Assembly (NCBI GenBank): GCA_027603945.1
Contig: JADIIU010000093.1
Span: 1-51,580 of the forward strand
DNA length: 51,580 nucleotides
Direction: 5' to 3'
Source of the DNA: Terramyces sp. JEL0728
Taxonomy: Eukaryota; Chytridiomycota; Chytridiomycetes; Rhizophydiales; Terramycetaceae
The position numbers and the translations under genes were made by a program. This document shows, one piece after another, positions 1 to 51,580 of this stretch. The stretch's first letter is position 1; every line of letters starts with the position of its first letter. Below the pieces are notes generated by a model, which ran no database searches, was not told the origin of the DNA, and saw nothing but the letters and a program-made list of their open reading frames with translations.

Positions 1-72
1 TGGAATGGCTGGGTTAGCTGGAATGGCTGGGTTAGCTGGAATGGCTGGGTTAGCTAGAATAGTTGGGTGCGC
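1..72. repeat. 18-nt tandem repeat encoding ANPAIP on the minus strand
   Basis: The unit TGGAATGGCTGGGTTAGC occurs three times perfectly at 1-54, followed by a degenerate copy at 55-72. The period is a multiple of three and translates on the minus strand to repeated ANPAIP. The array continues beyond the left edge, so its copy number is unknown. Confidence 0.9.
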
Positions 73-408
73 AACAGGAAACTTTGTTGAAATATTCGGT
101 GCGACTCTGCTTCTTTGAGATGCTGAGCGATTCAAATTGCTGTTGCTTCGAGTAGAATTACTCCTGGCTAAACCGTCATGATGTTGCTGAGTATCGTGGT
201 TGAATTCACGACTGACTTCCGCTGGTTGTTGGCTGTAGGGTATTTGAGGATTGTAATCATTCTGGTAGCCCTTACTAGCACTTTTGCTTGAATTGTATCG
301 TTGCAGGTTACTGTACTCTATGTTTTGTTCAGCTTCACTAAAATAATTTGGCCTGCTTCGCTGTGCATGCGCTGAAGCTGACCTCTGAAGCTGCCCATTT
401 TGTTCCAT
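1..408 (-). CDS. Low-complexity Ser/Arg/Gln-rich protein, 5' part only (runs off the window)
   Basis: Reading the minus strand from an ATG at 408 gives 136 open codons with no stop before the window edge, so only the N-terminal part is present. The protein starts MEQNGQLQRS and is rich in Ser, Arg, Asn and Gln. It ends here in a hexapeptide repeat, ANPAIP, encoded by an 18-nt DNA repeat. I recognise no domain. The divergent CLEC16A gene starts 87 bp away at 496, so the two may share a promoter. The function is unknown; the composition suggests a disordered, phosphorylatable protein. Confidence in coding status rests on the long open frame through a codon-periodic repeat. Confidence 0.6.
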   Translation of the reverse strand, partial: MEQNGQLQRSASAHAQRSRPNYFSEAEQNIEYSNLQRYNSSKSASKGYQNDYNPQIPYSQQPAEVSREFNHDTQQHHDGLARSNSTRSNSNLNRSASQRSRVAPNISTKFPVAHPTILANPAIPANPAIPANPAIP

Positions 409-495
409 GTGAATTTACTCTACCGCAAAGAAAAAATAGAATTGAATTGCCGATCTCATTCCTTCCAAATTGGGAAACGGCAATATTTGGGAAAA

Positions 496-2615
496 ATGAA
501 TTCAATCCTAAAGTTATTTTTCAAACCCGAAAAGTATTCGGTCGAGTATGTAGATTATTTGGAGCAGAAATTCAAGTTTATATCTGACACAACCATCTCG
601 GAAATTGTAAATGATCTGAAAGAATTAATTGAAATTACATCATTCGCAGTTCAAAATGAAAAGCAGACTCTGACTGAGTAAAAGTGTTTAATTCAGCAAG
701 TGTTTCTCCAGTGGGACACACAGATTGATTGTATCGTTGATCAACAAGCATCAACCACGGTTGACTTTGGAAATTCTCAAATTTTACAGTGTGTTATTTG
801 AAAGTATTCAGAGCCGCAGCTTAATTTATCTGACTACGGTTGGGATCGTTAAAGATTTGCTGACTTGTTCATTCAAAACTGATGATGAAGAGACACTATT
901 TACTTTTATTATCAGTATTTTAAACTAATTCTAGTGCTGAAAACCATATCTTTTAAGATTGGTTTCGTAGTCATCAACATTCACCAGCTGTTGTACTTTC
1001 CGCTGTTCAACAGCGCCATTCAACACTCTCATCACAAGGAAGAATTTGTCCGATTAGCAGTCAAAAGCATTATACTGAATTTGATGGCCTTGCGCGATCA
1101 ACCATTGCTAGAGTATATTATTTGCACCAGGAATTACGTATATCACCACATTGAAGGTATATGCTCTAACATCAATTCAAATGCATTGGAAATTGAACAA
1201 ATTAATGATGAATTTGACTTTATTCAAGAAATCTCAAATCTAAATATACCGCTGCTAACCAATTACTTGTCCAATTCTCTGATGGACTGCTTGATCTACC
1301 CAATAGTCATCAAAAACTTACATAACGAACAAAGGAAAGTTTCACTATTTTGGCTCACACGGATATTTTTGATAATGCAGAACACAGCTATGGTTGACTT
1401 GTTACTAGAGTTGATTTTCGGTAAAATTAAGGATAGCGAATCTATTGCTGAACAATTGGTTCTGGAAATGAGTAAATCTGACGAAAGTACCGTGGCAGCA
1501 ACTCTTGGATTTCTATATGCAGTTTTGGGGCTGGAGCATTTCCATTTAAAAATACTTTATCAATCGAAACTCTACCCTCTTAGCTACCAGAAGGCGGACA
1601 AATTACTGGAAAGTCTAATCTCGGAGAGACCATCTCCTCAACTATATGTATATCTTGAAAAGTTTGCTGTTCAGTTATTGGAACTGCTTGATCCAAAGTT
1701 AGTGTACTGCTCTTTAACAGTAAAATTGACTGTCTCTTTGTTCTTGAAAATGTATCAGGTTGAACCTTCAGCACTTCAGGACAATCCCCTTCTTTTCAGC
1801 AAGATAAAGGTGCTTGTTTTATTGATGTAGGAATTATATGCCACTTACTCCAGTGTTTTGATGAGCTATTTGAGCCCTGATGGTTTTCGTGAAATTTCGT
1901 TTTTACTGGAATACGAAAACTCCCGCGAAGCTGGTGCGCATATACTAATGTGTAGAGATTGATTTGTTCGAAAAGATCACTAATACCAAAATACTATCTA
2001 TCAGAACAATCGATAACGGAAACAAAAATACCACTATAGACAGGCTTATAATGAATTGGCTAGGCATTGGTAAAATGCTAAATGCTTTTGGGATATCGCA
2101 AAAGAAATTGGATTCAGTTTCCAAAACGGAAGTTCCAAAGGATATAGATTTGACCGCAAACTCAAGCGATATGATACTGGTTTTGGTGCAAACTAGCGTT
2201 GGGGGGAGAGTGGAGCCGCCTTTGCATTTATATTTGATTTTTATTAATGAATACCTTGTATTTATCAAACCAGACCCGTATGTTCTAGGCTGTGGGAAAG
2301 TGTACTACCAAAAATACATTGCACAGCTAACGGTAATTGTAACTTATGTAGATTGTAGCGCATGACGAAATCTCAAACACGCTTGATATAATCGAGTATA
2401 AATCACTTTTGAAAAATCAGAGGTCAAAGTGCTGTACTACATTGAGTGGGAATGACGTGTTCGATGAAGAAGTGATTTGGCAGGCCAGAATAGTATTTAA
2501 TCCAGAACAACAATTGAATATATTCAGGGAAAGGTTTCTATACCAACAAAAAACCCATATTGCTTCAAGGATAGAAGTTATAAAAGAATATTTCGTGTCA
2601 AATAAAATATTGTAA
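496..2615 (+). CDS. CLEC16A: CLEC16A/ema/TT9 family protein (FPL domain), endosome-autophagy factor
   Basis: The spliced protein is 672 aa. Animal homologues act in endosomal trafficking and mitophagy. The N-terminal FPL region (about residues 60-270) aligns with CLEC16A, including a VRLAVKSIILN-like stretch and a region ending in RIFLIMQNTAMVDLL. The middle aligns with the helical region, and the C-terminal third (from about 1964) with the conserved CLEC16A C-terminal domain. The frame requires introns at 678-696, 915-934, 1810-1830, 1934-1955 and 2333-2351 (19-22 nt), and the remaining length divides by three. Two of these introns contain ACTAAT. The start at 496 is the first ATG in frame, 87 bp from the divergent gene. 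A 26-nt stretch near 961-986 could hide a further in-frame intron. The protein is shorter than human CLEC16A because long disordered parts are absent. Confidence 0.82.
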
Positions 2616-2648
2616 ATTTATGTAAATGCCGAGCATTGTTTGTCAAAA

Positions 2649-5520: not shown

Positions 5521-5522
5521 TT
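5517..5522 (-). terminator. AATAAA signal overlapping the IPK1 stop codon
   Basis: The minus strand reads AATAAA at 5522-5517, sharing bases with the TAA stop at 5523-5521. This fits a very short 3' UTR. Confidence 0.6.
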
Positions 5523-6588
5523 AGCTGCAATAAGCACTCATAGAGCATTTGTCAGAATGAAGTGAATCTAGTAATTTCTCTAATTCTTTTAAATTTTTCA
5601 ATTTGTCTTTGCTCTTATAATCCAAGTCTACTGCTGTTATTCTAAATTTGATATTTTTCAAAAATCCCACCCCTCCTTGTAATTCTATTTCTTGAATTAT
5701 ATTTGGTCCTTCATTTCCGGTTGGATGAGGCGAGAATTTAATATCGTTGTTTGTCAAATAAATTGAAATAATTATCGATAAATCTTTAAGGCAGACTGAA
5801 GTCATAAAGTTTTCAATTCTTTCTTGAGTCTCTGCATCTAATGTGCAGTCTTTCTTTTCACGATTTTCGTACAACTCTTCAACAAGGTCATGTTTCAATT
5901 GCTGAGCGTCCTTGATCTGTTCAAGTATTGGACTTTTAAATAATATAGTTGAAATTATGTCATTGAGATCGTGTTCTAGAATGTTTATGTTTGCTCCATC
6001 TATCTTTTTCTGTTTGTAAAAGATTTTAAAATTGTTTTTAGGTGTTTCTTGTAAATTGCGAATGGATTTTGAAATCCGATTGAAATTTCTAGAGTACAAA
6101 TCCAGCGGACAATATTTACCTATTGGTATGTTGGATGCCCTGCGTTTCAATTCTTCATGAACACAAAATCTGCATGAGGAGTACCTATCAGGAACAAATC
6201 CCCATTTAGGCTTAATTTCTAGAGCTAGCACATCGCAAACACCATCAACAGCGATCAAGTTTTCCATCAAAAGCCCTTGTGAAACATTTTCGTCAAATTC
6301 TTGCATTCTATTTCTTTCATTGGCAATCTTTTTCGATAATTCAATCAAGAACACCGGGTTAATGTCAACTAGATCCTACATAAGCATAATTCATACGATG
6401 GACATCCGATAGTCGGGCAGTATTTCGTTGTAAATGCGGATGTAGTTATAGTAGATCAACTTTACATCAACATTTTTTTTAGGTATTCGCAAAACCCTGT
6501 TTCTATATATTTCGTCATTCCCTGTATATGCCACAACAACGTTTGCATTTCCTTCGTCAATGTACCTGAAGTCACCAACAATCAGCAT
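5521..6588 (-). CDS. IPK1: Inositol-pentakisphosphate 2-kinase (makes InsP6)
   Basis: The spliced product is 348 aa. The family phosphorylates the 2-position of inositol pentakisphosphate to give InsP6 (phytate). Conserved signatures are visible: an EGNANVV nucleotide-binding start, EIKPKWGF, CRFC, YCPLDLYS, and near the end DLSIIISIYL and DLDYKSKDKL. One 21-nt intron at 6376-6396 joins the two parts; joining gives DLVDINPVFL, which matches the family's conserved valine-aspartate segment. I chose the ATG at 6588 because homologues begin only a few residues before EGNAN; an in-frame ATG at 6618 would add ten residues. The start lies 85 bp from the divergent ATG8 start. The stop overlaps an AATAAA signal. 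Confidence 0.88.
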
Positions 6589-6664: not shown

Positions 6665-7077
<413 letters not shown>

Positions 7078-7079
<2 letters not shown>

Positions 7080-7083: not shown

Positions 7084-7106
7084 CAAATAGCTGTGTGATC
7101 TGATTT

Positions 7107-8420
7107 TTACAGCATTGACTTAATAATCTTGGTTAACAATTTGATATGTGGGGGGAGGTATCTGGATTTCGCAATTCCAAGGGAAGAAGGAGCAGAATGT
7201 TGGTTCAGGTATTTCAAGTTTCCCTGCAGTTGGTTTTTTAAATGACTATCTCTGGTTGTGATATAGAGTTGGGCTTCCATATCTCTTCTTAAGGAGCGAA
7301 AATTAATGTTTGAAGATCCAGTTACACACACAAATTCATTTCCATAAGAGACCCACAATCCTTTTGCATGCCAAGTCCACCCTTTCCTATTGTATTCGAA
7401 AACTTTGATATTTTCATTCTTGATCTTTTTGATAAATTGGTATTGCAAATAAGAGTAAGCATGGGGAATGAAGGAGCTAATTCCTTTCGAGCCAAAAAAT
7501 CCATTTTGCTCTGGGGCTGAAGTTGTGATGCTGAACTTGCTAGATGACTGAATCAATATACGCTCATATATTTGAGGAAGATTCAAGTATCCAGCGGCAA
7601 TATGGAAATCTGCGTTTGGCAACTTTAATAGTTTTAGCATGGCTTTTTCATCTTGAGTTACTCCGATGTTGTATATTTGTAATGCAGGCGAAATGATAGT
7701 ATTACCGGAAACACCATTCGTTTTGATTTGCCATTTGCAGAGTAAATTTGAGATTTCCCTGCCAAAACTCGCTTTATACTCCTCCTGCTGATTATCAGCC
7801 AATAGTTTGTTTGGTATTAATTTCCCGTTTTCAAGATTTGCACTGTATTTGGAAATCAGCGAGATTATGTCGTAAAAATACTCACACAACTCGTTACATT
7901 CGATCGATAAATATCTATCCTGTCTATTCTCAAAATAGTCGGTATTTAGGTTCGCCCCGCTTATAATCACCCGACTGTCAAATTGATAAAGTTTTATATG
8001 TTGCAGTCCAAACCCTTCAATGAATCGCGGCGGAACTATTTTTTCAATTATTGGTCCCACGTTTGGAGATTTGTAGTATGATACTTTTAAATGGGGGAAT
8101 TTGGCTTGTAATCCAGCTAACATATCTAATTCCTTTTCCGTTCTAGTTCCCCTAAAGTAGTCCACCAAGATTTCCACTTGAACACCTCTATTTAAAGCAT
8201 CTTCTAAATGTGTAACCTGGATTAATCTTTGCATTACGATTCGTTCATCTCCAATATAGAGGGAGACCAGAATAATTTTTGATTTTGCATTTCGAATCCC
8301 CGACTGGCCTTAGTGAGTTCATACCTTAAGATGATTAAAGAATTCAACGGGAGTCGATATAACAGTGATATCTTCTGGGTCTACTTTGAATTTGGGGAGT
8401 TCATCCAGTATTTTCAACAT
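7107..8420 (-). CDS. PGS1: CDP-diacylglycerol-glycerol-3-phosphate 3-phosphatidyltransferase (PGP synthase)
   Basis: The spliced product is 430 aa of the phospholipase D superfamily and makes phosphatidylglycerol phosphate, the first step to cardiolipin in mitochondria. Two HxK motifs are present: QHIKLYQFDSRVIISGANLN in the first half and WHAKGLWVS followed by VTGSSNINFRSLRRDMEAQ in the second. The intron at 8304-8324 (21 nt) joins the N-terminal ISTPVEFFNHLK to SGIRNAKSKIILVSLYIGDE, both typical of PGS1. The chosen ATG at 8420 is only 14 bp after the stop of the upstream R3H gene, leaving almost no room for a promoter. No clear mitochondrial presequence is visible at this start, so import would need internal signals or an unseen upstream exon. 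Confidence 0.9.
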
Positions 8421-8434
8421 TGGAAAGAAAACTT

Positions 8435-9131
8435 TTACAAAGGATCTTCACTTTTATTTGCGGGAGATTTAGGTTTAATTAGTGGAGTAAATGCAGAGTT
8501 ATTACGGATCGTTTTTGCATAAGGTGAATCAATGGGTTGTGAGCTAGCCCCAGTATTATTCGAATTACAAGTGTTTTTTTGATATCTTGGTTGAAACGAA
8601 TCCCTGGGTACGCTCTTTGCCGTGTTGACATCTACTTCAATCCCTTCATTTATTTCAATGTAATTCCCCAAAATTCGAGCCCTAGCTTGTTGGTATTCCA
8701 ATTCCTTTTCTTCCATGGATTTCTCCGACTCTTGGCGCATTACCTGTACAACCTTCTTTGGCTCTACCAGTCGATTTGCCTGAATTACCACTCGATGCTC
8801 TTGGCCCGTCTGATAATTTGGAATTAGATCTGATAATTTAATTTCCGATCTTGGTTAATAAGCAGCTACAATCTAGAAGCACTGTTTTTGTACATCACAA
8901 TATCCGTCTTATTCGATACTACATGATCCAGACCGAACAAATCTGCTAGTTTATGGACCATCAGTCTTTGGTACGAATTGAGGTTATCGAATCTCAGTTT
9001 GTTCTTGCTTTATAAGGATCGAATTACCTTTGGTCATTGATAAATGCTGCCAGCTGCTGCTCTATGTTTAACAAGTATATTCGGTCGTTTGGTTTTTTCA
9101 GGGCAGCTATCAGTATTTCTGCAACTTCCAT
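8435..9131 (-). CDS. R3H and SUZ domain RNA-binding protein
   Basis: The spliced product is 218 aa. Residues about 35-90 form an R3H domain (LRFDNLNSYQRLMVHKLADL with the following FGLDHVV). It is followed by a SUZ motif around EEKELEYQQARARILGN, a pairing that binds single-stranded nucleic acids, usually mRNA. Introns lie at 9008-9027 and 8850-8869 (both 20 nt), the second with a TTATTAAC branch-like site. Both are required to join the R3H halves and then SEIKLSDLIPNYQ. The C-terminal 70 residues are disordered. The gene diverges from HYDIN (105 bp between starts). The closest named relatives are R3HDM/Rbs1-type proteins; I give no symbol because the match is at domain level. Confidence 0.85.
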
Positions 9132-9236: not shown

Positions 9237-12200
9237 ATGGATATCGAAAACACGAGAAGGCCATCAGATTACATCAAGGCGAGACAAACAGGAAAATACT
9301 GTGTGTTTGCAACAAATGATAATATCCCGCCAGAAGTGATTGCTTTGGTCGACGACACGGAAAATATAATCCAGAACTGTAAAGTCCCATTTGAAAGGCC
9401 ATTATTTCAACCAGAACCTAGCAGTATCCGCTTGGAATACTTTTCACCATTCAAAAGCTACGAGCTGCTGATAAATTTTAGAAATATGGACAAGGTATCT
9501 TTAATTTTATTCCAGGTACCACGCAGACTTCGGATTGAGGAATCCCGTAGTCCTTATTTTTCAATTCATCCATGGAGCACAAAATCAAACCAGTCAGACA
9601 AGGTTGCGCCTGGAATGGAAATCCCATATATAATCAAATTTAACCCAGAAGAAAACGTAGATTATTCGTTGAACTTGGTGTGTGTGACCGAGCGTGAACA
9701 GTTTGTTATCCCAATAAAAGCAATCGGCGCCAGGGGTAACCATGATTAATATAGGAATCTTGGACTTGCCTGATCAAATTCTGTTTCAAGAAGTTCCAGC
9801 AAAGAAAACCTCTCAACGAACACTACTTGTCCGAAATATTGGCGACTGCCCTGCTAAATTTGAATTAAGCGCAGAGGCACCCTTCAATGTTAGCCCAGAA
9901 AGCGGTTGCTTGGGAAGTGGGGATGCCGTTCAGCTTATTATAGAGTTTACTCCAAAAGTATCAAAAATTTAACCTAGCAAATCGGATCATATTCCTCCAA
10001 ATTGTTGGTAAAGTACGAAAGTGGTGACCATATGCTTGTGGATTTACTTGGAACAGCGGAAAATAAAAACATCAGACTAGACAAAAACAATGTCAAAATG
10101 GAAAATTCGATATCTGTCACAACTTCAAAATCACTGAAAATAATTAACAGGTCCGAGTTGATGGTCAAATTTTCATGGAAAAAGTGTCCAAACGAAATTG
10201 AAGAAGAGCTCTTGAAAATGAAGCGTAAAATGGATCTGTTTAAACAGGAGCAAATAGAAATTGAAAGTTTAAAACAAAAAAAATCTGAAATTCTTGACTT
10301 TTCTGTGGTAAAACAGAAATTCAAGAATGAAAGTCGTTTATTCAATGACATAACGTACGATTTTAAAGACAGTTGCTTTACTATTTCCCCATTAGAAGGA
10401 GTAATTTGGCCAAATTCCTTTGTTGAAGTAAATATCCATTACCGGGCTTCTAAAGTTGGCGAACAATACACTATTGCGTATTGTGATATCGAAGGTAGAG
10501 AAACAAGACTGCCGTTACAATTGAGGGTATTTTGTTTTGATTTTAGGGCCGGGCATATGGACCAAAGGTAAAGTTTTCCTACACCAAATTTAATGTTGGC
10601 GAGATTTTCATCAACACATCGCACAATTACGAGATTCTATTGGAAAACCACGGAAATATCTCTACAAAATTTTCACTTCAAGAATCTAATTCAATATTTG
10701 GACCAAAATTCAAATTTACTCCATCTGCTGGAACAATTAGAGTCGGAGAACAAATACTCATCAATGTTGAATTCTATCCTGATATCCTTGGGGGCTTCAG
10801 AGAAGATTTTTTATGGGAAATTGATGTAATATTGTTTGATGTTAGGGCGGGTCATTCCCATTAAATGTTTGCTTTGACGGATCGGTGATTGGTCCAACGT
10901 TTAATTTTGATGTAGAAAAATTAATTATCCCGTGTGCATCCTTGGGATTTCTGAAGATCCACAATTTCCAATTAAACAACACATCGTTGATTCCAATGAA
11001 ATACAAACTCAAATTAAAAGGGCTTTCGGACGATGAGAAAATGGACTTTATTCTAAACCCGTCTGAAGGTACAATTGCAGAGAAATCTAGCACCAAGTTG
11101 GAAATCCAGTTTCTGCCAAGGAAACTGCAAAAGTATCAAGGTTCTGTTGTTGTAAATGTCGAAAATGTTGGGAATAGCTTGCTTACACTTCCAATTGAAG
11201 CACATAGCACAGTACCAAAGGTATTTGACTGATTCAACTAGGTTACGATCGAGAAACCAGTGATTGCTCTGGCAAACTGTTTTTTGGACTATCAATACCA
11301 AGATTCAATAATTTTAGTAAACGACAGCGATTATTGGGCATCATTTGAAATGGAGGAACGGAATTCATCTCGTAATACTGTTTATTACTATTCGTTTGAC
11401 GTTCCAAAAGGCACAATTCCACCACATTCTACCTTTACTATCCAAATCACAGTTACTATCCATCGATTAGGGCAAATTAATTTCCCAGTGTTTATTTATA
11501 TTACTGGGGCCAGGGAGATACCAATCAGCCTTGATATTTCAGCTAATGGGGTGGGACCATGCACATCGGTGTCTACTAATGAAATAATCTGGGGAAACAT
11601 TCCAGTCCTAGTAAATCACTATTTCGAGCTCTATTTGGAAAACAAATCTCCTATTCCTGCAGAGTTTAATTCTATCACTGTAGGGGATTCGCCAGTATTT
11701 AAAATTGAACCGGTGCATGGAGTAATAGCTGCTGGAGAGAAAATCAATATTACTGTTTCTGCTTTTTTAGATGATACAATCAAATTCACCGATGTTCTAA
11801 GAATCAATGTTGCATCCAGCGCAATACATGAAATCTTACTCTCCGCAAAAGGTCATGGATCAACAATTGTGTTTGACGAGTCATTGAAAAATGTTGATTT
11901 TGAAGACGTTTTTAGCAACAAAGAGTGTTCCACAGATTTCACAATCTACAATAAAGGTAGAAGAACCCAGCATCTGAGTTGGGTACATTTGCCAACTAAA
12001 GATCCGGATATATTAAGCAAGCAAATTTTTGAAGTAATTCCAAATAGATTTACCCTAAAACCTGGAGCGCATCAAGTGATATTTATAAAAGGATACTCAA
12101 ACGTTGCTGCAAAGATTAACGACAAACTGATATGCCAAACTAACACCGACAAAGACCCTTCAAGAAAAGTTTTAATTGAAACCAATATTTCTGTAAATTT

Positions 12201-37246: not shown

Positions 37247-38547
37247 ATGAGTACAGAGAATACAACAGTAAGAAGGAAATCGCTGGTGGATACTCCCAAC
37301 CTACCTGTACAAAAAGGGCATTTGCGGAAGCGCTCGGCTACTACCTATCAGAAACGTCCGGATTTGGCTGCAAATGGATCATTAACAAATTTAGGAAGCA
37401 TCTCTGTAAAAGGTGTAGATACAAAATCATTTGCAATATTAGAAAAAATACAAACCGGGCCATACTATAAAGTAACAATTACCTAACCGAGAAATACTTG
37501 GTGCAGTGGAAAGGGAACAGATCTTGCTTGTATGTCATGAAAAAGATTGTTGCTCAGACATGTGTACAAAAGGAAGCAGCGAGAAACGAGTGCGGCGAAC
37601 GATTTCTACATCAATCTATAAATTCAATCTTTACTGCTAATCTAAAGTTTTGTTTTCAGGACAATCACCACATTTATACCATATCTGAATTTTCGAGATT
37701 AAATCTACGAAATTTATTGCAGAGCGGAATAAAGGAAGCAAGTTTACAGCGATTTGCTGCACAGATTAGTTTGGGGCTGTCATATCTGCACAACAACTTT
37801 ATTATTCATCGCGCTATCAATCCAGACAATTTGTTGCTTGACCCATATGGAAATATCTTGATTTCAAATTTTAGTCATGCAATGTCAACAAAATACCCTA
37901 TAATATTATCCGATGAGGATATTAACACCAATTGTAAAAGTAACTCGGGTTTAAGTCAGGTCCGGAAGTACTAAATGGTAAACAGTATCAGTATAGCGCA
38001 GATTGGTGGTCGATGGGAGTTACCCTCTATGAAAGCACATACGGCTCAGTAAGAACCTCTAATCTAGCTTCCATTTGAAATCCAGGATACGAATACTTTT
38101 GAGTTTTCCTTTCCAAAAACCAACAACCTTACACAGGCTTCGGTTTCAGAATCAGTACATCGAGAAACTTTTATTAAAGGGCTATTGGAAATCGATCCAC
38201 ACAAACGGATAGGCAATTCATATGGCGGACTTGGGTTTGAAAAGGATGTAAAACAGCACCCATGGCTATCCTTGATTGAATGGGAAGCTCTCCAAGCAGA
38301 GAGATCAAAAGTAGAGGCCAACTTTCAACTCTCCGGAAGCAATTCGCCATACGGCTCTGGTGAGTTTCTTAACAAGCTTTTAACCAAAGTCAAGACAAAT
38401 ATCAACAATGTCGCGGGCTCGTTTTCAAGGTTGGATTTGCCTCAGGATGTTAATATGGACCATGTCAAACTGCTTTCATCGTTCATGAAGGACTTTAGCT
38501 TTGAGAATCAGGATAATGAAAAGTTGGACAATGTTCCAGGTAACTAG
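37247..38547 (+). CDS. YANK/STK32-family pseudokinase
   Basis: The spliced product is 413 aa. The kinase fold is recognisable from FAILEKIQTG through SYLHNNFIIH, SPEVLNGKQYQYSADWWSMGV and DPHKRIG. The Gly-rich loop is lost (GPYYKKY), the HRD catalytic Asp is Ala (HRAINPDNLLLD), and the metal-binding DFG/DFN is SNF. The ATP-site Lys may remain in YVMKKI. It should therefore be catalytically dead and act as a scaffold. Introns: 37472-37491 (20), 37940-37959 (20) and 38049-38067 (19 nt), at positions and phases also used by the STK32-like genes at 43.1 and 45.4 kb, which shows common descent. A 75-residue basic, Ser/Thr-rich N-terminal extension precedes the domain. Confidence 0.82.
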
Positions 38548-38655: not shown

Positions 38656-39882
38656 ATGAAGGAGGAGCAATTCCAGAAACGGCCGCCACTGAGAATTCAA
38701 ACGGACATAATCGATCAAGAAGATATTTGTCTCGGTCTGCAATTCACCTTGAAAGATGCAATCAAAGAGTACATACAGCTTGAGGAGATTGAAAACCAAT
38801 TAACAGCCATACAAGCACAGGCAGACAAGCTGGAAAAGGAAATTCACTTGCTTGAAGCGGAAATAAAAGGAATTGAGAACAAATTGGCTTATTTGCACGA
38901 CAAAAGGTACTTGTTGCTCACGCAGGTTGACAGAAGTCAGTTACTTGTACTTGGTATATGTTGCTAACCTTGGATTTTATTGAATAGAGCAAAGCGAGAA
39001 GAAATCGAGTCGAATATAGCCAGCATCGTTAAAGCGGAGGTTGGTACACGGAAAGACCTTTGGTATAGAAAGAGATCTCTAAAGTCTGCTAGAATCAGGG
39101 TATTTAACTAGCTGATGTAGTTTAAAGCTCTGGAAAGCAATTCTAGAAAGCTCCAACATGTAAAGCAGCGGATCTGCCTCCTCTTCACGCGTGTGTTTAG
39201 GATCAAAAACTCTCCATTTGCCGTTGAATCCCGACTGTATGAAGAATGCGAGAAACAGCGTCGAAAGATGGAAGCCATGAATGACGATTTGCTGAAATAC
39301 GAAGGTGCACTCAATCTGGTAATGCAATTGGTCCGAGCTTTTTCGTACAAATACAGTGAAATCTCCAGAAAAGTAACTGATCCTGACGACAAGTTTATAC
39401 TTGGAACCCAGTTTAGCAACTTTATGATTGATACGTATTCTCAAGCCCGAGAAATTCAACCAAAAATACCGAAATTGCCCTGCCTTTCATGTTGCAAGGT
39501 CCTCGGCAATAGCAAGACATTAGTAGGCAAGATACCCCAACTAAAAGAATATACCAGAGAAGAACTACACTCTGCGATGAACGAACTGCTGTTGTTATCG
39601 ACTAATCTCTCCCAGTTGGTTAAATATAAACGAACGCGGTGTAATACAGTAACGGAACTATATCAGAGCAAATCAAATGAGCTAGAACTTGAAAGAAGAA
39701 AGATATTGAGAGGATTAGCCCTTGGAATAGACAGGCAACGCGCTCTGAGAACTAGCATTGACACGATTTCTTCTAGCCTGGATTTACCGCCAGCATACGT
39801 GCAACTACCATCACCTACACCATCCTATGATGACGATATACCACTCTGCCAACTTTTTAATTTAAGCAATAAACAAGCTTAA
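38656..39882 (+). CDS. Coiled-coil PPxY protein, paralogue of the 32.5-34.0-kb gene
   Basis: The protein is about 390 aa, starting MKEEQFQKRPP at 38656. Two coiled-coil stretches flank ICLLFTRVFRIKNSPFAVES, which matches IFNRVFRS of the paralogue. The C-terminal part has RRKILRGLALG, DLPPAYVQLP and YDDDIPLCQLF, the same motif order as the paralogue but without the long acidic tail. The intron 39100-39120 (21 nt) is clear. Another splice is required between about 38905 and 38993, but several choices keep the frame (for example one 36-nt intron, or two introns including a 19-nt one at about 38907), so that junction is unresolved. Function unknown. Confidence 0.7.
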
Positions 39883-41073: not shown

Positions 41074-41954
41074 TTACTTGGAAGAAACCATTCCGTAGTG
41101 ATCTTCATCAATGGTGGTGTAAAGCAATCCTTCGTTGGTCATGGCTTCAATTTGATCTCTATTGTCAACACAATCTACCTTATATTTGCTTCACTATCCA
41201 TTCCTCTTAGTCTGTGCAAGATGTCATCGATGTGGGTTCCAGTGCTATTTGGATTTTGTTGCAACACAGTTGCAATTTGAGCTTGAACTGGATTCAAATC
41301 ACTGTTCCCATACGACGAACTGTTTTTAGAATATACAGAGTTCTGCGGTTCCTTTACAGTGTCCTTCTTGATCTGAACGAATTAGTCCGAACTTACCGAC
41401 GGTTTCGTAAGAGAGTTGTGGGTGTGAATTACTTGGAGAAAGTGGTGTGTAAGCTCGTCTACAGAATCAATAGGGATAATGCGATTGACATTGAGACTCT
41501 TTTTTCCCTGGAATGCCTTCAAGTGGCCGACAACTTTTACATAAGTCCCTTCGCTACCATCAATAAAGATTACGTAAACTCGTTGCCCATTTCATTCTCG
41601 GCATTGTCAGTATATTGGCGAGCTTCTATTGACCCAGTACCGTCGTCCACAACGTATAAAGTGTTACTGGAGTTGATGGTGACTTTGGTGATTCTGGCAA
41701 TGATCGCTACTTGGAATATGTCGGCCTTGTCAACTACAAAGGGAGAGTCACTGTTCACCTGCGTGGCACTGGCTAATTGTTTTATTGTTACATGTCTAAA
41801 TGTTTGATTGCTGCTCTTCTTTCCTGGTGATTGATATGGCGAGCCAAATGGACTTGGAGATGTGAATCCACCGCCAGTATTGGTGTTTGCAGCTGTATTA
41901 TTTCCCGTTGGATATCCTCCGTAACCTAATATTATTCAAGATCATACCCATCAT
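41074..41954 (-). CDS. RPA2: Replication protein A 32-kDa subunit
   Basis: The spliced product is 264 aa with the normal RPA2 order. A Gly/Ser-rich N-terminus carries SP/TSP phosphosites (TSPSPFGSPYQSPGKK). An OB fold follows (VAIIARITKVTINSSNTLYV, DDGTGSIEARQY, VKVVGHLKAFQGKKSLNV), then a C-terminal winged helix ending LLYTTIDEDHYGMV. It binds single-stranded DNA in replication and repair. Introns: 41926-41947 (22), 41554-41573 (20), 41373-41396 (24) and 41159-41178 (20 nt). The first coding exon is only 7 nt (ATGATGG). The start is 27 bp from the divergent methyltransferase gene. Confidence 0.93.
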
Positions 41955-43142: not shown

Positions 43143-45244
43143 ATGGGCAATTCATCATCCTCTCTAGACGGAAAGGATGAAGGTAAGCGTCACTAATATA
43201 GTCGATATCAGTCATTTCAAGCTGCAGCAAGTCATAGGGAAAGGAGGATTTGGCATGGTCAGAATTGTTTCCAAACGAGATACAAAGCAAAAGTACGCTT
43301 TGAAATATATCAACAAGAAAAAGTGTATCAAGAAGGGGGCGGTCAGAAATATATTCAGAGAGCGATTGATATTGGAGAAATGCGACCACCCATTCATCAT
43401 TAATCTTCAATTTGCATTCCAGGATGACGAACATATGTTTATGGTTATTGATTTGGCTCTTGGCGGGGATCTGAGATATCATTTAATGCGAATTGGAAGT
43501 CTTCCTGAACAAACTGTGAGGATATATGCGGCCGAAATTTCGTCAGCGCTACACTACCTGCATGGACAGAATATCATTCATCGGTATTTTTGGTTTGATT
43601 ATAGTGATTTAAAACCTGAGAATTTGCTGTTGGACGACGAGGGCCACATTCATGTTACAGATTTCAATGTGGCCATCATGTTGGATGAGAAAATTCCGAC
43701 TTCAAAGTCCGGGACTACCGCTTACATGGGTACAACAAGACTAATGTCCAGCTCCTGAAATGCTAATTCATAAGCCATACAAGTACTCTGTCGATTGGTG
43801 GGCTTTGGGTATTATTATTTATGAATGTACATATAATATGGTAAGCGCCGCTTAATCGTAGCACCCATTCTTGATAGATAAAAAGACTCCGGTGGAGAAG
43901 GCAATTCGCGACAGAAATGTTGTTTTCCCAAATCCCAAAGACTTGCAACCTGAATACTATCCCATCGCCGAATCTAGGTTTAGAACAGCATTCATCAATG
44001 GCTTATTGATCAAAAATGTACCTGATAGATTAGGTTGCGGTCCAGATGGAATGAATGAAATCAAGGAACACCCTTGGATGCAACAATTAGACTGGGCTGC
44101 GGTGGAAAGAAAAGAAATTATACCAGAGTTTATACCAGATGTAATTGCTCGTTAATTCTAGCCTTCTCAAAATAATTACGATTTTGGAGCGGCATTGGAG
44201 GAATTGCTTTATGAAAGCTCACCACTGGGATCCAAACCTGTAAAAAAACGGAAGCAGAAAAATCAAATTCCTCCGACTCTGGCTTCACTGTGGGAAGATG
44301 ATGGACAAGTTCCAAACACTCCATCAGCCAAAAAGGAAAAGACCGAAAAGGATTTGGATTATATCGAGTTATACTTTGAATCTTACATCAAACCGCAGAG
44401 ACTGCTGGATGGCAAGCAAAAGAAGCCTGCAAGATCAGCTACAGCCCCCCAAAAATTACAATACACCAACTACACCAAAAAGGAAAAAGCACCGAGCTTT
44501 TGGGAATCTGCCTTGCGTCCATCCAGGGCATCCAAAGCCTCAAGAGCAGAATCAAAGCCCGAAGGCACTCAATCAAAGCTGAGAACGTTCCAGAGAGAGT
44601 ACTTTAGCCTTTCCCAAAATTCAGTGATCAATAATAGATATAATCAAGATCAGCCAGCATTTAAGGAACGCTTCCCGGAAAATCTGCCAATAATCAGCAA
44701 AACAGAATCCAATGCCACCATTTCAAGGCAACCCAAACCTGGTTTGGATGCAATGTATCACCAAGAGCAAATGGCGTTTAAGACAGCTTACAAAGCTGTC
44801 CGAAATCATGGCTCAACCTCCACCCTTGGAAAATCGACAGATGATTTAAATTATTCCCGCTCCAACTCCATAGATATTAACGAAAACATTCCGCCGATCC
44901 CAGATAGCTTGAAATACAGAGATCCAGCAGTTCGAAATTTAAAACCAAAAGAATTGCAGAAAAGGGGTATTCCAATGTCATTGTCGGCACCTTCTCCACC
45001 CCCAGTTGAATTCCATCCCTACACCTTTTCGCCAGTACAATCTCATATTCAAGACGAACAATATGCGCAGTCTGCCACTACGCCTCCAAAAACGCTTCAA
45101 AGGTACGATGTTTTGGAAATGAATATGCAAGGGCTCCATTTAGACTTTCCTGATAGGCTCGAAAAGTCTCCCACCTCTGCTTCTCCGCCAAGTGAATACA
45201 GCCAAAGAAAAATACCAAGAAAACCCTTCCAAGGAAACTATTAA
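43143..45244 (+). CDS. STK32: STK32/YANK-family Ser/Thr kinase, N-myristoylation motif, long disordered tail
   Basis: The spliced product is 665 aa. [10 protein letters not shown] is a strong N-myristoylation signal (Gly2, Ser6), as in human STK32 proteins, so membrane targeting is likely. Kinase motifs are intact: [39 protein letters not shown] (DFN is normal in YANKs), MAPEM, and [11 protein letters not shown]. After the domain, the STK32-type [12 protein letters not shown] is followed by 350 disordered residues. Introns: 43183-43201 (19), 43584-43604 (21, stop-free), 43730-43751 (22), 43841-43861 (21) and 44141-44161 (21 nt). The second intron splits the HRD triad between Arg and Asp. Its positions are shared with the next gene. 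Confidence 0.93.
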
Positions 45245-45364: not shown

Positions 45365-47068
45365 ATGGGAGGAACTTCAATGTCAGAAACCTCAGTTCCA
45401 ACAGAACCAAAACGGTCCCACAGCACTTCCAAACGTAAAACGAGTATGTTCAAACCGCGAACCAGCAAAAACCAGTCATTTTCGGAATCGCAGAGCAAAA
45501 CTGGAGTAGAATCAAAGAGCGGAATGGAATCCGTTGTAAGTGCTGATGGCAGCATGCGCTCCAGACAATCTTCGGTAATTAAACCTGCTCCTGCACCATT
45601 ATCTAGTAAATGTAATTAACGCAGTTTGTTTAAAGCATTTCAATATCCTCGGAATCATTGGGGAAGGTGCGTTTGGAAAAGTAATTCGGAAATTAATAAG
45701 GTCAAAAGAATCGAGAGGAAAGACAAGACAAGGTCAAATTACGCATTGAAATATATCAACAAGAAAAAGTGCATTGAAAAAGGAGCTACTCACAATATGT
45801 TTAGAGAGCGTATTGTGCTGCAATTGCTGAAAAATCCATTCATTGTCAATTTGAAATACGCATTCCAAGACGACGAGAATTTGTTTATGGTTTTGGATAT
45901 CGCAGAAGGCGGTGACTTGCGCTGCCATTTGGACCGATTAAAAACAATGAAGGACGATGTTTTACAAATCTATACCGCAGAAATCGGATATGCATTGGAT
46001 TACTTGCATTCAAACCACATTATCCACCGGTAATCATCGTTAATTATAGTGATTTGAAGCCTGAAAACTTGTTGTTGGATAAAGACGGGCATATCCTGTT
46101 GACTGATTTCAATATTTGCGCAAATTTGAAAGACTCTACACCAAAGCACGCATCAGGAACTAGACCTTATATGGGTAAGTGGCGATTAACACAGCCCCTG
46201 AAATGTTTATCGGGCAGCCTTATGGGTATTCTGTAGATTGGTGGGCAGTTGGTATTATATTATATGAATGTACTTATGGGAAGGTACCATGATTTTTACT
46301 TAGCGACCTTACAAGATTGAAAGAGATAATCCTACCGAAGCATTTGAAGTGCCGCTGGTATTCCCAGAAGAAGTTTACAGGACCAAGCTGACAGTGGCAA
46401 AAAATCCTATTCGAGAAGAATTTTACACTGGATTATTGCAAAAGGATATCGCCAAGAGATTAGGGAGCTCAAACAGCGGATTAGGGTTCAAAGACGATAT
46501 CTTGAGCCACTCTTTCTTGAAGGGAATTGATTATGCACTAATTGGGGAGAGAAAACTACAGCCTTCTTACAAACCAAATGTAGCTTTTTCATTAACACAG
46601 ACCAAATTACTTAATGTTGACTCTGCTTTAGTTATCGATGAATTGATGGGCGGTGGTGACGGTCTGGCTTATAAAGCAAGAAAAGGTGATCGCCCAAGAG
46701 GAAAATCAGTGGGTGAAAAGTTTACCACTGGATTCCTTAAACTGTTTGGTATTGAAGTGAAAGAAAAGGCGCCAGAAGAACCAAAGCCAAAGACAAAAGA
46801 AGAGTTGGAAATGGAAGAAATGGATTTACACTACATTCCTTACAATCACGAACTACCTGATCAAGCCCCAATGAGTATGCCATCAGATAAGAAAAATTCT
46901 CCGGAAAAAGCCCACTTTGAAGACGAAGAGTCTCCACTAAGTGAAAAAATGGATGACAAGCAAAGCAGAGCCAGTTCGGTAGACAATGAGCAACCATTTG
47001 CAAAAGCCCCTGAAATAGACGAAAAGGTTGTAGATGACGTTATTGCTGAACACCCAGAAGAGTCATAA
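45365..47068 (+). CDS. STK32: STK32/YANK-family Ser/Thr kinase, tandem paralogue
   Basis: The spliced product is 534 aa. A 75-residue Ser-rich N-terminus beginning MGGTSMSE (a weaker myristoylation candidate) precedes an intact kinase domain: [50 protein letters not shown], and [11 protein letters not shown]. The C-terminal extension is acidic. Introns: 45606-45624 (19), 45681-45700 (20), 46030-46049 (20), 46175-46194 (20) and 46282-46301 (20 nt). Four of the five match position and phase in the upstream kinase or in the pseudokinase. The gene starts 120 bp after the upstream kinase and arose by tandem duplication. It ends 49 bp from the convergent INTS6 stop. Confidence 0.92.
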
Positions 47069-47117
47069 ATTTCATATTTTAAAATATATTTTATATGAAC
47101 TGCATAGGCGATTTATG

Positions 47118-49785
47118 TTACACTGACTTTCTGTCAATCATATCGATATACTGAATCACTGTCGGTCGGTTGAACTTGATTGCAAGGTTTCTTACCCATA
47201 GTAAGCGATCAGCGACGTCCTTTGTCCACTCTGTGGTATCAAATCCAGTCTGTATTGCCTGCAACAAGTCGTTTTCATTGTATTCTACATTAGCTGGCAT
47301 AGTTACCACCTGGCCATTTCGTCATTAGGTGGTGGATATTTTGCCGAGTCGTTAGCCATGGTACTTCATTGATCTTTCTTGGAGAAACAGGTTCAATAAG
47401 CTCCACGTCAAAGAATACCGGCTCAGGATCGCCAACAACGGTTTCAGCCAAGTCATCGATTTCCATCCGATCTTGCAAAGGGCCATTCAGTGACTCGGCT
47501 CCGATGCTTGAGATACTGTCGGGATCATTCTCAACTTGATCGGTGTCTACCAAGTTTTTCTCATAGATTGAATGTAAAACCAAATCAAAATCAATTGATC
47601 TCAGCTTTTTCCAAGTGAGGTCTTTGAAGAGAGGAACGACGAAACCAGATTTTTTCGAGATGGGAGGGTATTGTTTTTGCACAGCTCGCCGATTGAGTTT
47701 ACTCCTCCAAACTTTTTTCGGTTGAACAGTTTCTGTCTTGAACTCATGGGACGCTTCTTCTTCTACTTCATTTAGAGTTTCACTATCAGATTCAGTAGCA
47801 TCAGGACGCTGTTGGGACTTTTTGGGAGCTTTCTTGTAAGGATTACCGAAAAGCGACTTGTCGAGCATCTTCCGGACAGATTCATCTTCCAGCGGATTAC
47901 GCAACAATTGCTGCGTCGCCATTGCCAGCGCATAGTTTCCCATTTCGCCGATCGGCAAGGAATGCTTTGCATCTGATGGTTAGTGCACTCGTACCCAATT
48001 CTTGCTGGGTTAGACGGCTGTTAGTGTCCAGTTTGTTTGTCAAAAGCCGCAATTGAATGGTCAGGTCCGATTTCTTGACATTATAAATATTTTCTTCTAT
48101 TTTAAGACTCTTTTCATTTTGACTATTCTTGAATGGCTTGATGGAGCCTGCAATAGTATTGCACGTAAGTAACGCCTACATCAACTATCAATAACCTTTT
48201 GAGCCAGTCTGTCACTCTGCTCATCGATCTCGGCGATAATGCTTGGAAATGGTTTAGAATAGTCCCACACGTGGGATAGCTGGACCTTGGCAAGCGCTTC
48301 TTTAATGGGCTAATGTTACATATCATAAATACCTTCCAATAGTAGCAAGGAGTGTTTTTCAAGTAGTTAGCGAAAGCTAGTGTCCAAGCACTGGGTATCT
48401 TTTTTTGTTGAAAGTTTTGAACGGCGGCTATGTTAGCAACTAATAATACTCAGCAAATGGAACAGTTTTGGGAAATTATAGGGCAGCAAATACAGGTTCA
48501 CGGTCCCATTTCTACTCACTTTTAGGAAACCGAATGGCAGCCCTGGTCCTGGCTTTGAATGGCTGTTTTGCATGAATAGCTAGATTAGTGATCCATCACC
48601 GTCCAGCAGGTTCCTTTTGGCCGTTTCGTCAACTCTCTAGCAACACTAGTTTGCTCCATTGATAATCTATCAACTGGAAACCCCTCCAATAGACTATGAT
48701 GCTCCTCTTTAGTAGAAACCAAAATAACAGGGTGGGCGTTTCTATGAGGCTATTGTAAATGCTAAAGTACGAATTTCAATAGCGTTCCATCTTCTCGCGC
48801 ATAGCTCTCTGGCCAAAAAGATTCGGGGATTGGAAAGTGCTTGGAAACAGAATGATTTGCATATACAAAGACTCTTTCGGCAATTCTTGGAGTTTGATTT
48901 TCAGGGTGCGATTCGAATGCAACGGACACGCCTTCGATATATGCAATGGACTGATAAGGTTGTGGGAAGGGATGCTTCCTTGGCTGCGTTACTCCTACGC
49001 AATTATTTACACACTGTAATAATGCTTTTAAAGAGTCTATCCTCCAAAATTGTCCTGGATTACATAAAAGGTACCTCCTGATACATCACTCATTATAGAC
49101 ACTTGAGCATCGACAGGCTGGAGCTCATGCATTAATGCAATCGTATACAATCTCTGCTCCCATCTAAATGGTTCAAGATAATTATCAGCACCAGGGGATT
49201 TCAAACCTGGAATATTGATCTATAAATTAGAAAAGGAAATAAAGAAAGTTAAGGTAGCTCAAGCGGTTAGGCTAAAGAAGAAAGTTCTTACTCTGTCAGT
49301 TACAGTTAGCCCGTTTGAAAATTGCTACTGTTAGTAAATATTAACCATTCCGTCTGTTACCCAGAATATTAGTGTGGATTCTTGCTGTGCTGGATATCGG
49401 CCCTGGGATAAGAAATGGGTACCTTGCCCCGCACATCCAATTTGGCTTGCGTTCGATTAGCATTCAAGTAATCAAATAAAGCACTCATAGTTGCGCCGGG
49501 GTTTGAGTTGTTGGTCGCAGTGGTATATTTTAGTATTTCAGCCAGCTCTTTTTCACTGGAAAGACACTAATTAACTGAAAAATACTTTGATCGGCTCGTT
49601 GTCGTAAGTTGCAAGCAAGTATTTTGTGGGCTGTCGATGCGGTTTACGATGCTCCCACTAGAGTTAAGACGGATTACTTTGGTAAACTCTTCGATTGCAG
49701 CTTTCGCACAATCCAAGTAGGAGAGGTTTTCGCTGAATATTCTGTTCATGGACACACTATTATCAAGTATAAATGCGAAAATCAT
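47118..49785 (-). CDS. INTS6: Integrator complex subunit 6
   Basis: The spliced protein is 782 aa. Integrator cleaves snRNA 3' ends and paused transcripts. The start MIFAFILDNSVSMN is the vWA MIDAS (DxSxS), followed by FWVTDGM, EPFRWEQRLY, FPIPESFWPE, LPFGFLK, LYLLPYNFP and LPIGEMGNYALAM, all aligning in order with INTS6. The C-terminal 60 residues match the conserved INTS6 tail. Thirteen introns: 49631-49647 (17), 49567-49585, 49403-49422, 49325-49345, 49220-49291 (72), 49055-49074, 48750-48770, 48580-48599, 48428-48449, 48310-48332, 48176-48195, 47973-47994 and 47285-47306. Removing 319 nt leaves exactly 783 codons. This is the most intron-dense gene in the window. Confidence 0.93.
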
Positions 49786-50097: not shown

Positions 50098-50616
50098 ATG
50101 TCTAATCTTGCCGACTTGCAGAAATCTGTATTCTCATCCGAATTCACTACCGTCGACTCTATAGCCGCTAAACCAGGGCCAAACGGCCAGCACATTCTAG
50201 TTTGTATCGATACTTCGGCAGATTCATTTGAAGCACTGATATTCGCCGTCCAAAAACTGTCGCATCCAAACGACGTCCTCACTGTATTCATTGTTTTAGA
50301 TCCAAGAGATTTATACAAAGCAGATACAGACAGAGATACCTATCGCGAAAACTTGATGGTTGATATGCACAAGAGAGTAAAGGAATTGTTGGTTGCCTAT
50401 GAAAAATCATTTATTTACCGAATCAATGCTGAATGGAGCGAAGATCCTAGAAACGCAATCTTGAATAAGATCCAGAAGGGCTACGGCATGGTTGTTGTCG
50501 GCTCCAGAGGAATGTCTGCGCTTGAAGGAATTGTGGTTGGAAGTGTCTCTACGTTCTTATTGAACCGATCTCCCGTTCCAGTGATTGTCGTCAAGCGACC
50601 ATTGGAAAAGCATTAA
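50098..50616 (+). CDS. Universal stress protein A family, ATP-binding type
   Basis: This single-exon protein is 172 aa and covers one Usp domain. The start ILVCIDTSADSFEALIFAVQ, the middle DVLTVFIVLDP and the end VVVGSRGMSALEGIVVGSVS show the fold. The last contains the G-x2-G-x9-G-S/T motif of ATP-binding Usp proteins. Members of the family help cells survive starvation and oxidative stress. The start at 50098 follows a TATA-like element and gives MSNLADLQ before the domain. AATAAA lies shortly after the stop. Confidence 0.93.
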   Translation: MSNLADLQKSVFSSEFTTVDSIAAKPGPNGQHILVCIDTSADSFEALIFAVQKLSHPNDVLTVFIVLDPRDLYKADTDRDTYRENLMVDMHKRVKELLVAYEKSFIYRINAEWSEDPRNAILNKIQKGYGMVVVGSRGMSALEGIVVGSVSTFLLNRSPVPVIVVKRPLEKH

Positions 50617-50687
50617 TTTTACCTGCAATAAACTCATTTTACAATCAGTTGAAATTTTGACATTCGCCAAATTTCGGTACGAGATAA

Positions 50688-51291
50688 TCAACTGTAATCA
50701 AGATTTTTATTCTCCAATTGGATGTTCTTTGGTAAAATCTTTACGGTCGTGATATGCTGGGTTCTATCGTTAAAGTTAATCACCTTGGTAAATATTTTAG
50801 TTCCTCTCCACCATTGGGCATCTAAAAAGCTTTCATTCGTAGGTGGGAGGAAGACTGTTGTAGGAGCTACATATCTTTCAGTGTGATATACAGGTTCAGC
50901 AGAATGCTCGTCCAAGACACCTCCTTTTCCTAATCCTTTAACAGGTGCTTTGAGATCATTTGCAGCCCATTCAGGATGGTCCTTCATTATTTCGGCTTCT
51001 CTTTTTGCAATGGCATGCATACGTCTAACCATATCACGATCAGCTTCTGCTTGGAAGATTGGAGCCAAGTGGATTCTTGCCCAAGTTTTTTCTCTTTTGT
51101 ATTCCCTTTCGATTACAATTCAATTACCTGCGTTCTCTGGTGTTTTCAGTAGTTTTCATCAATCCATAAGTCATAGCGGCTCCTGCAACAAGTAGTAATA
51201 CTGCTCCTGACGGTCCTCTGGTTGGTAAATTTCTTTTATATTTAATGGTTGTTGGAAAACCTCCTGCTGGTGCTGCATCCTGTATTGCCAT
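50688..51291 (-). CDS. NDUFA13: NADH dehydrogenase (complex I) subunit NDUFA13/GRIM-19
   Basis: The spliced product is 193 aa. The signature PTTIKYKRNLPTRGPSG is followed by one membrane segment (AVLLLVAGAAMTYGLM), then the matrix-side helix with ERREYKREKTWARIHLAP, FQAEADRD and EAEIMKDHPEW, and VYHTERYVAPT, as in GRIM-19. It is an accessory subunit of complex I in the inner membrane, which shows that this organism keeps complex I (some related parasites have lost it). One 22-nt intron at 51106-51127 joins the halves at ERR. The start ATG at 51291 fits the family; the C-terminal extension is longer than in fungi such as Neurospora. Confidence 0.92.
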
Positions 51292-51580
51292 TTGAAAGAT
51301 GTGAAAAAAACGAAATTTGCAAATTCAAATGCAAGTGAAAATCGAGACTGAAAGGATACTTGGTAATTATAGAGTCTCGTTATAGATATTTTTAAAAAAG
51401 TTATTATTGCCCCAATTTGTATCGAATAGAGATTGGCTTTGAATTTCATTTCACAGGTAAGATCTGCATGTGGAATATTAAATATTGCTAATGCAGTTCC
51501 ATCGATACATTTCATAACTCGCCACTGGGGGGTTTCAAAGTTTCACAAATATTAAATTGTAAAAGAATGTGCCAGTAAAA
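51292..51580. other. Right-edge intergenic region
   Basis: AT-rich sequence upstream of NDUFA13. A minus-strand ORF starting near 51515 runs antisense through the NDUFA13 first exon and looks like a shadow. No RNA gene is seen, and the next gene probably lies outside the window. Confidence 0.4.

Follow-up and report, generated by a model that had tools for sequence, protein, structure and literature searches.

Genes and introns of the window

The stretch of DNA analysed here, referred to as the window, is a complete contig (C93) of 51,580 b from a chytrid assembly of 15.02 Mb in 231 contigs. Its genes are interrupted by introns of about 20 nt, which very probably are U2-type spliceosomal introns shrunk genome-wide to a near-minimal length. 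Judged from its closest protein relatives, the genome is placed in the Rhizophydiales, Terramycetaceae (Chytridiomycota), at or near Boothiomyces. The large exon of Prp8 is 98% identical to Boothiomyces sp. JEL0866, followed by Entophlyctis (86%) and Batrachochytrium dendrobatidis (85%), and U2AF65 shares 93% identity with the B. macroporosus protein, the next being that of Globomyces (65%). The presence of a HYDIN-like gene, identified by a Pfam match of its longest exon, fits a flagellated fungus.

Genes were called with our own two-strand hidden Markov model, and the main intron census covered the window together with C2:1-200000 (251,580 b). An intron was counted as frame-required when its length is not a multiple of three or when it would bring an in-frame stop if kept. 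In the window, the joint model called 77 introns, 73 of them frame-required, with 76 at 19-24 nt and one modelled at 84 nt. The call at 8432-8451 was dropped as a false join, because it would link two separate genes: the R3H/SUZ gene is closed by a TAA of its own, and the PLD-domain gene is opened by an ATG at 8420. Moreover, the long intron of the INTS6-like gene is better read as 72 nt (49220-49291) than as 84 nt (49220-49303). The final set comprises 76 introns, spread over 21 genes; 75 have 19-24 nt, and the remaining one has about 72 nt. The preliminary description of this DNA agrees: it also counted 21 genes, with 72 introns, of which 71 measured 17-24 nt and one 72 nt.

Introns of the window, from the gene model (position, strand, length, gene, further support; 3n, length divisible by three)
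678..696, +, 19 nt, FPL-domain gene (496-2615), FPL domain
915..934, +, 20 nt, FPL-domain gene
1810..1830, +, 21 nt, FPL-domain gene
1934..1955, +, 22 nt, FPL-domain gene
2333..2351, +, 19 nt, FPL-domain gene
6376..6396, -, 21 nt, inositol-pentakisphosphate 2-kinase gene, Pfam
6791..6811, +, 21 nt, Atg8 gene (6674-7079), gapless PDB alignment
6920..6938, +, 19 nt, Atg8 gene, gapless PDB alignment
9008..9027, -, 20 nt, R3H/SUZ-domain gene, Pfam
8850..8869, -, 20 nt, R3H/SUZ-domain gene
8304..8324, -, 21 nt, PLD-domain gene (presumably PGS1-like), Pfam
9495..9515, +, 21 nt (3n, no stop), HYDIN-like gene (9237-22969), Pfam for longest exon
9736..9754, +, 19 nt, HYDIN-like gene
9958..9977, +, 20 nt, HYDIN-like gene
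10527..10546, +, 20 nt, HYDIN-like gene
10826..10845, +, 20 nt, HYDIN-like gene
11221..11241, +, 21 nt, HYDIN-like gene
19657..19679, +, 23 nt, HYDIN-like gene
22145..22164, +, 20 nt, HYDIN-like gene
22446..22465, +, 20 nt, HYDIN-like gene
22702..22723, +, 22 nt, HYDIN-like gene
23363..23381, +, 19 nt, metallophosphatase/ASMase_C gene, Pfam
23819..23838, +, 20 nt, metallophosphatase gene
23948..23968, +, 21 nt, metallophosphatase gene
24045..24064, +, 20 nt, metallophosphatase gene
25355..25373, -, 19 nt, LSM-domain gene, Pfam
26955..26974, -, 20 nt, AMP-binding enzyme gene, Pfam
26605..26623, -, 19 nt, AMP-binding enzyme gene
26413..26431, -, 19 nt, AMP-binding enzyme gene
28317..28336, -, 20 nt, SpoU methylase gene, Pfam
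29350..29369, +, 20 nt, SAP-RRM gene, Pfam
29498..29518, +, 21 nt, SAP-RRM gene
30051..30072, +, 22 nt, eIF1 gene (30034-30429), Pfam SUI1
30141..30159, +, 19 nt, eIF1 gene
30261..30282, +, 22 nt, GT-TG, eIF1 gene, SUI1 score and PDB 2ogh_A alignment
34759..34779, +, 21 nt (3n, no stop), RNase III-like gene, Pfam
35028..35047, +, 20 nt, RNase III-like gene
35166..35185, +, 20 nt, RNase III-like gene
36234..36253, -, 20 nt, radical SAM gene (which we take to be RlmN-like), Pfam
36122..36143, -, 22 nt, radical SAM gene
37472..37491, +, 20 nt, protein kinase gene (37247-38547), Pfam
37940..37959, +, 20 nt, protein kinase gene (37247-38547)
38049..38067, +, 19 nt, protein kinase gene (37247-38547)
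38907..38925, +, 19 nt, gene 38656-39882 of no assigned kind, uncertain
38954..38973, +, possible intron of 20 nt ending in GG, gene 38656-39882, uncertain (in an earlier model 41 nt, 38947-38987, ending in AG)
39100..39120, +, 21 nt, gene 38656-39882 of no assigned kind
41926..41947, -, 22 nt, RPA2-like gene, Pfam
41554..41573, -, 20 nt, RPA2-like gene
41373..41396, -, 24 nt, RPA2-like gene
41159..41178, -, 20 nt, RPA2-like gene
43183..43201, +, 19 nt, protein kinase gene (43143-45244), Pfam
43584..43604, +, 21 nt (3n, no stop), protein kinase gene (43143-45244)
43730..43751, +, 22 nt, protein kinase gene (43143-45244)
43841..43861, +, 21 nt, protein kinase gene (43143-45244)
44141..44161, +, 21 nt, protein kinase gene (43143-45244)
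45606..45624, +, 19 nt, STK32-like kinase gene (45365-47068), best PDB match
45681..45700, +, 20 nt, STK32-like kinase gene, PDB match
46030..46049, +, 20 nt, STK32-like kinase gene, inside the HRD motif, PDB match
46175..46194, +, 20 nt, STK32-like kinase gene, PDB match
46284..46303, +, 20 nt, STK32-like kinase gene, PDB match
46580..46600, +, 21 nt (3n, no stop), STK32-like kinase gene, PDB match
49658..49677, -, 20 nt, INTS6-like gene (47118-49785), PDB match
49567..49585, -, 19 nt, INTS6-like gene
49403..49422, -, 20 nt, INTS6-like gene
49325..49345, -, 21 nt, INTS6-like gene
49220..49291, -, 72 nt, sole long intron, INTS6-like gene (modelled as 84 nt; 72-nt version in PDB alignment)
49055..49074, -, 20 nt, INTS6-like gene
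48750..48770, -, 21 nt, INTS6-like gene
48580..48599, -, 20 nt, INTS6-like gene
48428..48449, -, 22 nt, INTS6-like gene
48310..48332, -, 23 nt, INTS6-like gene
48176..48195, -, 20 nt, INTS6-like gene
47973..47994, -, 22 nt, INTS6-like gene
47285..47306, -, 22 nt, INTS6-like gene
51106..51127, -, 22 nt, GRIM-19 gene, Pfam
50764..50783, -, 20 nt, GRIM-19 gene

Length and end dinucleotides of the introns

The short length class was apparent before any splice motif was supplied. A first pass used a coding model built from uninterrupted open reading frames, required only GT and AG at the ends and gave all lengths from 10 to 300 nt equal prior weight. Of its 149 inferred introns, 53 had 17-24 nt, with a peak at about 19-22 nt. 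All 256 pairs of end dinucleotides were then compared in a motif-free coding model with a flat prior of 10-60 nt. With GT-AG, 71 of the 105 inferred introns had 17-24 nt, whereas the other 255 pairs gave a mean of 11.4 and a maximum of 28 introns in this range. Hence, GT-AG alone stands out by its length peak. In addition, units of the form GTR...YTRAY...AG spanning 17-24 nt occur 59 times on the sense strand of the window genes and 15 times on the antisense strand, and ten dinucleotide shuffles yielded a mean of 17.3 and a maximum of 23.

The refined models called 482 introns, 454 of which are frame-required. Lengths of 19-25 nt account for 434 of these (95 of 19 nt, 191 of 20, 80 of 21, 52 of 22, 13 of 23, two of 24 and one of 25), and six of the 20 longer ones are modelled as TG introns when the base before the last G is freed. 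With TG ends permitted in the joint model, 443 of 456 required introns have 19-25 nt. Intron density is about two per kb of coding sequence. Beyond this region, 18 loci on 13 other contigs, with loci L003, L004, L011 and L013 excluded (repeat of L002, on C2, or overlaps), gave 79 required introns, or 73 once overlapping loci were merged; 71 have 18-22 nt, one has 15 and one 28. Short introns thus prevail on each of the 15 contigs that were sampled, as in the fungal-type nuclear genome that the preliminary description envisaged. Its argument that coding lengths divisible by three speak for the models cannot be upheld, because any gene model imposes this property.

Introns of 17-25 nt whose length is a multiple of three are seldom free of stops in the census region (28 of 110; among introns of other lengths, 164 of 352 lack a stop). 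This scarcity may reflect selection against unnoticed retention, or a gene finder that keeps such introns as exon.

Layout of the introns

The 434 required introns share a compact architecture. A is found at +3 in 380 and G at +5 in just 77, and the commonest 5' hexamer is GTAATT (48). When the 5' end was freed, no dinucleotide other than GT became prominent. A YTRAY branch motif is present in 307 introns, and its position is nearly constant: the branch A lies 13 or 14 nt past the first G in 253 of them and 5 or 6 nt ahead of the last base in 250, while 278 fall within 12-15 nt and 4-7 nt, respectively. A wider motif list assigns a branch site to 384 of the 434, with 303 at each of the two main places. 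This layout was not created by learned motifs, since the 83 introns that were also called by the motif-free model show the same placement (62 with YTRAY, 58 of these in the main place).

Between the branch A and AG there are only 3-4 nt in 250 of the 307 YTRAY introns, with 72% pyrimidine, and therefore no polypyrimidine tract can be accommodated. The start in GTA, the CTAAC-, CTAAT- or TTAAC-like branch site close to AG and the missing tract, all named in the preliminary description from the window alone, hold in this wider census.

Homology at the intron junctions

The protein alignments bear on the possibility that assembly or sequencing frameshifts have broken genes that are otherwise uninterrupted. 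Frameshifts would likewise break reading frames, and the assembly is a draft. However, across 15 contigs the breaks seen here belong to a single length class, are bounded by GT and AG and carry a branch motif in a set position, and excising the segments restores the conserved protein without gaps. In Prp8, all six junctions are gapless over ±8 residues, pairwise, in 104-114 of 112-114 listed homologs, and so are three of the four U2AF65 junctions in 106-120 of 120, the fourth, directly after the start codon, being left out. Taken together, each of these nine junctions is gapless in 88-100% of 112-120 listed homologs, counts that leave out homologs mostly gapped there and Prp8 homologs shorter than 2,200 aa, which were removed beforehand. 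Within the window, Atg8 minus its two introns matches a PDB chain without gaps over residues 3-117. Five of the six junctions of the STK32-like kinase lie inside the PDB-aligned part, none of them in a gap as judged by eye, and the INTS6-like protein, in its 72-nt intron version, aligns with a PDB entry over residues 2-457 with loop gaps. We therefore regard frameshifts as a practically negligible explanation.

Public Boothiomyces proteins offer a further view of these junctions. The Prp8 protein of strain JEL0866 (P0001) carries the residues LSFTNC exactly at the first Prp8 intron (L040:678-697); back-translated, they resemble a retained intron of 21 nt that includes a CTAAC branch site. At the other five intron places this protein has no insertion, and therefore the depositors' gene models probably already contain ultra-short introns. 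The deposited U2AF65 of B. macroporosus (P0121) is fused to the product of a neighbour that is here a separate gene (L004:757-1380), and it lacks GMFLLPCHLLK, as though a conserved coding stretch had been taken for an intron of 33 nt. These two proteins show signs of mis-modelling at or near ultra-short introns.

Introns ending in TG

When the base before the last G was freed and all non-A bases were equally penalised, 430 introns ended in AG, 11 in TG, two in GG and none in CG (n = 443); without penalty, the numbers were 426, 18, 4 and 1. By eye, freed 3' ends other than AG and TG are mostly shifted ends of AG introns. Thus, TG would seem to be the sole acceptor in about 2.5% of the introns (11/443).

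Missed AG ends, odd exon ends or base errors could have produced this class as a gene-model artefact even if the short introns themselves are real, an explanation that we find unlikely but far from negligible. The class is small, and no TG intron is found among the introns of the 18 loci on 13 other contigs. Five of the 11 TG introns were compared with homologs, and two of these comparisons are whole-domain scores, one concerns the first 13 residues and one has small gaps nearby. On the other hand, the eIF1 intron at 30261..30282 is clear, with a SUI1 score of 87.6 bits for the TG end against 60.6 bits for an AG end and no gap at the junction relative to the PDB eIF1 chain 2ogh_A. The RPC1 junction, at residue 13, is gapless against homologs, and the remaining cases are consistent with TG: homology of DNA polymerase alpha runs through the junction, and the Aa_trans and NIPA transporter genes match nearly whole Pfam models. 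Moreover, TG outnumbers GG and CG, and a YTRAY branch A lies 4-7 nt from the last base in nine of the 11 TG introns, compared with 294 of the 430 AG introns. Should RNA bear them out, TG as the only acceptor in a few percent of introns would be a remarkable feature.

Spliceosomal components

Genes for Prp8, SF1, U2AF65 and Slu7 were all found. U2AF65 has two RRM_1 stretches in Pfam and can be aligned with its relatives through the C-terminal end, SF1 shows helix-hairpin, KH and two zinc-knuckle matches, and Slu7 matches its complete Pfam model with 289 bits. The presence of all four proteins sought argues, at the level of gene content, against a wholesale minimal spliceosome. U2 snRNA scores 140 bits, and its branch-binding stretch is unchanged and complementary to the YTRAY motif; U5 snRNA scores 86 bits and has its loop kept. 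The U5 gene (C84:23521-23635) adjoins two tRNA genes of equal score.

The four protein genes are themselves split by introns of 19-22 nt, and SF1 also by an ambiguous stretch. This stretch (C39, minus strand, about 1185-1206) contains stops and is compatible with a GT-AG intron of 15 nt, with three residues left over; alternatively, 24 nt between direct repeats would be removed, leaving no extra residues but lacking GT-AG ends.

These data bear on another explanation, namely that the segments act at the DNA or translational level, as internal eliminated sequences or as sites of translational bypass. Short, AT-rich and uniform gene insertions of that sort are known elsewhere. We know of no DNA elimination of this kind in chytrids, and the GT-AG ends, the branch motifs matching an intact U2 snRNA and the splicing factor genes speak against it, so that we hold it to be very improbable.

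A local change lies in the first RRM of U2AF65. Aromatic residues of the RNP1 motif contact RNA in RRMs. Its RNP1 reads EHCHVEF in the present genome and in B. macroporosus, both aromatic positions being histidines, and mostly NYAFVEF or NFAFLEF elsewhere. In an alignment of our protein with the best 120 of 805 matches, both aromatics are kept in 118 of 121 sequences. Globomyces, Kappamyces and Batrachochytrium retain them. The third exception is a metagenome protein (P0123; NSAIVEF) with 54% identity to ours. There is a considerable chance, if short of one half, that this change is drift with no tie to the short introns. It is seen in one lineage only, P0123 also lacks both aromatics, and the few bases between branch and AG remain 72% pyrimidine. 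Against drift stands the joint alteration of both positions, so widely aromatic, in a genome whose introns offer no tract. In Prp8, 34 changes at positions at least 97% conserved show no apparent theme.

Remainder of the window

Scans of the window for tRNA genes and Rfam families gave no matches. About 1.2 kb (4340-5520) lacks a gene model in an otherwise gene-dense contig, and G+C is low (0.314) across 4001-6000, around that stretch.

Weighing the evidence

Several observations weigh against the reading of these segments as near-minimal spliceosomal introns. In the first flat pass, 74 of the 149 inferred introns exceeded 60 nt, with scattered lengths; we take these to be gene joins. AT-rich end pairs reached likelihood gains close to that of GT-AG (best 225.9 versus 232.3), albeit without a length peak. 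The refined passes learned motifs and site preferences from their own introns, which leaves them dependent on the first pass. One of the 77 window calls was a false join, the check by eye for such joins having covered the window, and the C2 calls may include others. As many as 127 of the 434 required introns have no YTRAY motif. U1 was not found: Rfam gave none in the assembly, a 5'-end pattern gave four matches against 12 in a backward control, and a loop pattern 13 against 19, none of them U1-like. U6 likewise had nothing above the Rfam cut-off in the assembly, and two sequence patterns were unmatched; two matches below the cut-off (27 bits) were rejected as near-identical copies of one repeat without the usual U6 core. 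Finally, Slu7 is complete, so that this second-step factor has not been lost, unlike what is reported for Stentor; the expectation that a short branch-acceptor distance would entail the loss of Slu7 is thereby ruled out.

Nevertheless, the length peak specific to GT-AG and the junction homology confirm, as far as sequence can, that the ultra-short introns are real, and the interpretation as spliceosomal introns of a fungal nuclear genome in which short is the norm is supported. That such introns leave almost no room for U1, U2AF and the branch-site complex together, as the preliminary description put it, is an inference. In our reading, U1 and SF1/U2 would recognise the whole intron as a single compact unit, the acceptor would be set by its distance from the branch point, and pyrimidine-tract reading by RRM1 of U2AF65 would be dispensable, which would explain both the loss of the RNP1 aromatics and the few sole-TG acceptors. 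More specifically, and only tentatively, since we would give it somewhat less than even chances, the branch point may be the ruler, and the acceptor would then be whichever suitable (A/T)G comes first at about 5-7 nt beyond it, with RRM1 blind to pyrimidines, AG checking relaxed and TG serving constitutively as the only 3' splice site of a few percent of introns.

These introns touch on two general questions, the lower size limit of an intron and the way in which U1, SF1/U2 and U2AF divide 20 nt among themselves. A chytrid of this kind could show the minimum that an intron needs for splicing and, given its many introns, its usual set of core proteins and its closeness to cultured chytrids, would open this geometry to biochemistry and structure.

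Comparison with known systems

A pan-eukaryotic survey excluded introns shorter than 30 bp (PMC10639083) and a 2025 paper ranks 23 nt among the shortest known (PMC12316389), so that surveys can overlook introns like these. We found no report of ultra-short introns in a chytrid in the titles and abstract starts of the open literature, nor of a fungal nuclear genome with some two introns of this size per kb of coding sequence; subscription papers were thinly covered, and prior publication is possible. The new element here, whose novelty to science at large is not proven, is the observation together with the intron geometry.

Introns of such length have been described from ciliates, a parasite and a relic nucleus (PMC10245619). 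Introns of the heterotrich ciliate Stentor coeruleus have 15-16 nt and, like those of our chytrid, are uniform, GU-AG and almost fixed in the position of the branch A; the commonest Stentor intron even starts with GUAAUU, the counterpart of the commonest hexamer here (PMC9505925). Unlike in Stentor, the introns are 4-5 nt longer, occur in a fungus and mostly carry YTRAY, whereas Stentor is described as having no strong branch consensus; moreover, Slu7 is present here, while Stentor is reported to lack Slu7 and Prp18 (PMC9505925). Mikrocytid introns of 16-17 nt occupy a similarly narrow range at the short extreme, but there are only 224 of them, spread over 179 genes in a parasite whose spliceosome is reduced (PMC10245619); the present genome is intron-dense, and the spliceosomal proteins sought in it are present. 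Chlorarachniophyte nucleomorph introns, at 18-21 nt, have almost the same length range (cited in PMC10245619), yet they reside in an algal relic nucleus and not in the main nucleus of a fungus. As for the acceptor, TG is also used in human U2-type introns, where it is reported solely as an alternative beside a nearby AG and never alone (PMC2374985), whereas in the present genome it would apparently be the sole acceptor, as judged from sequence.

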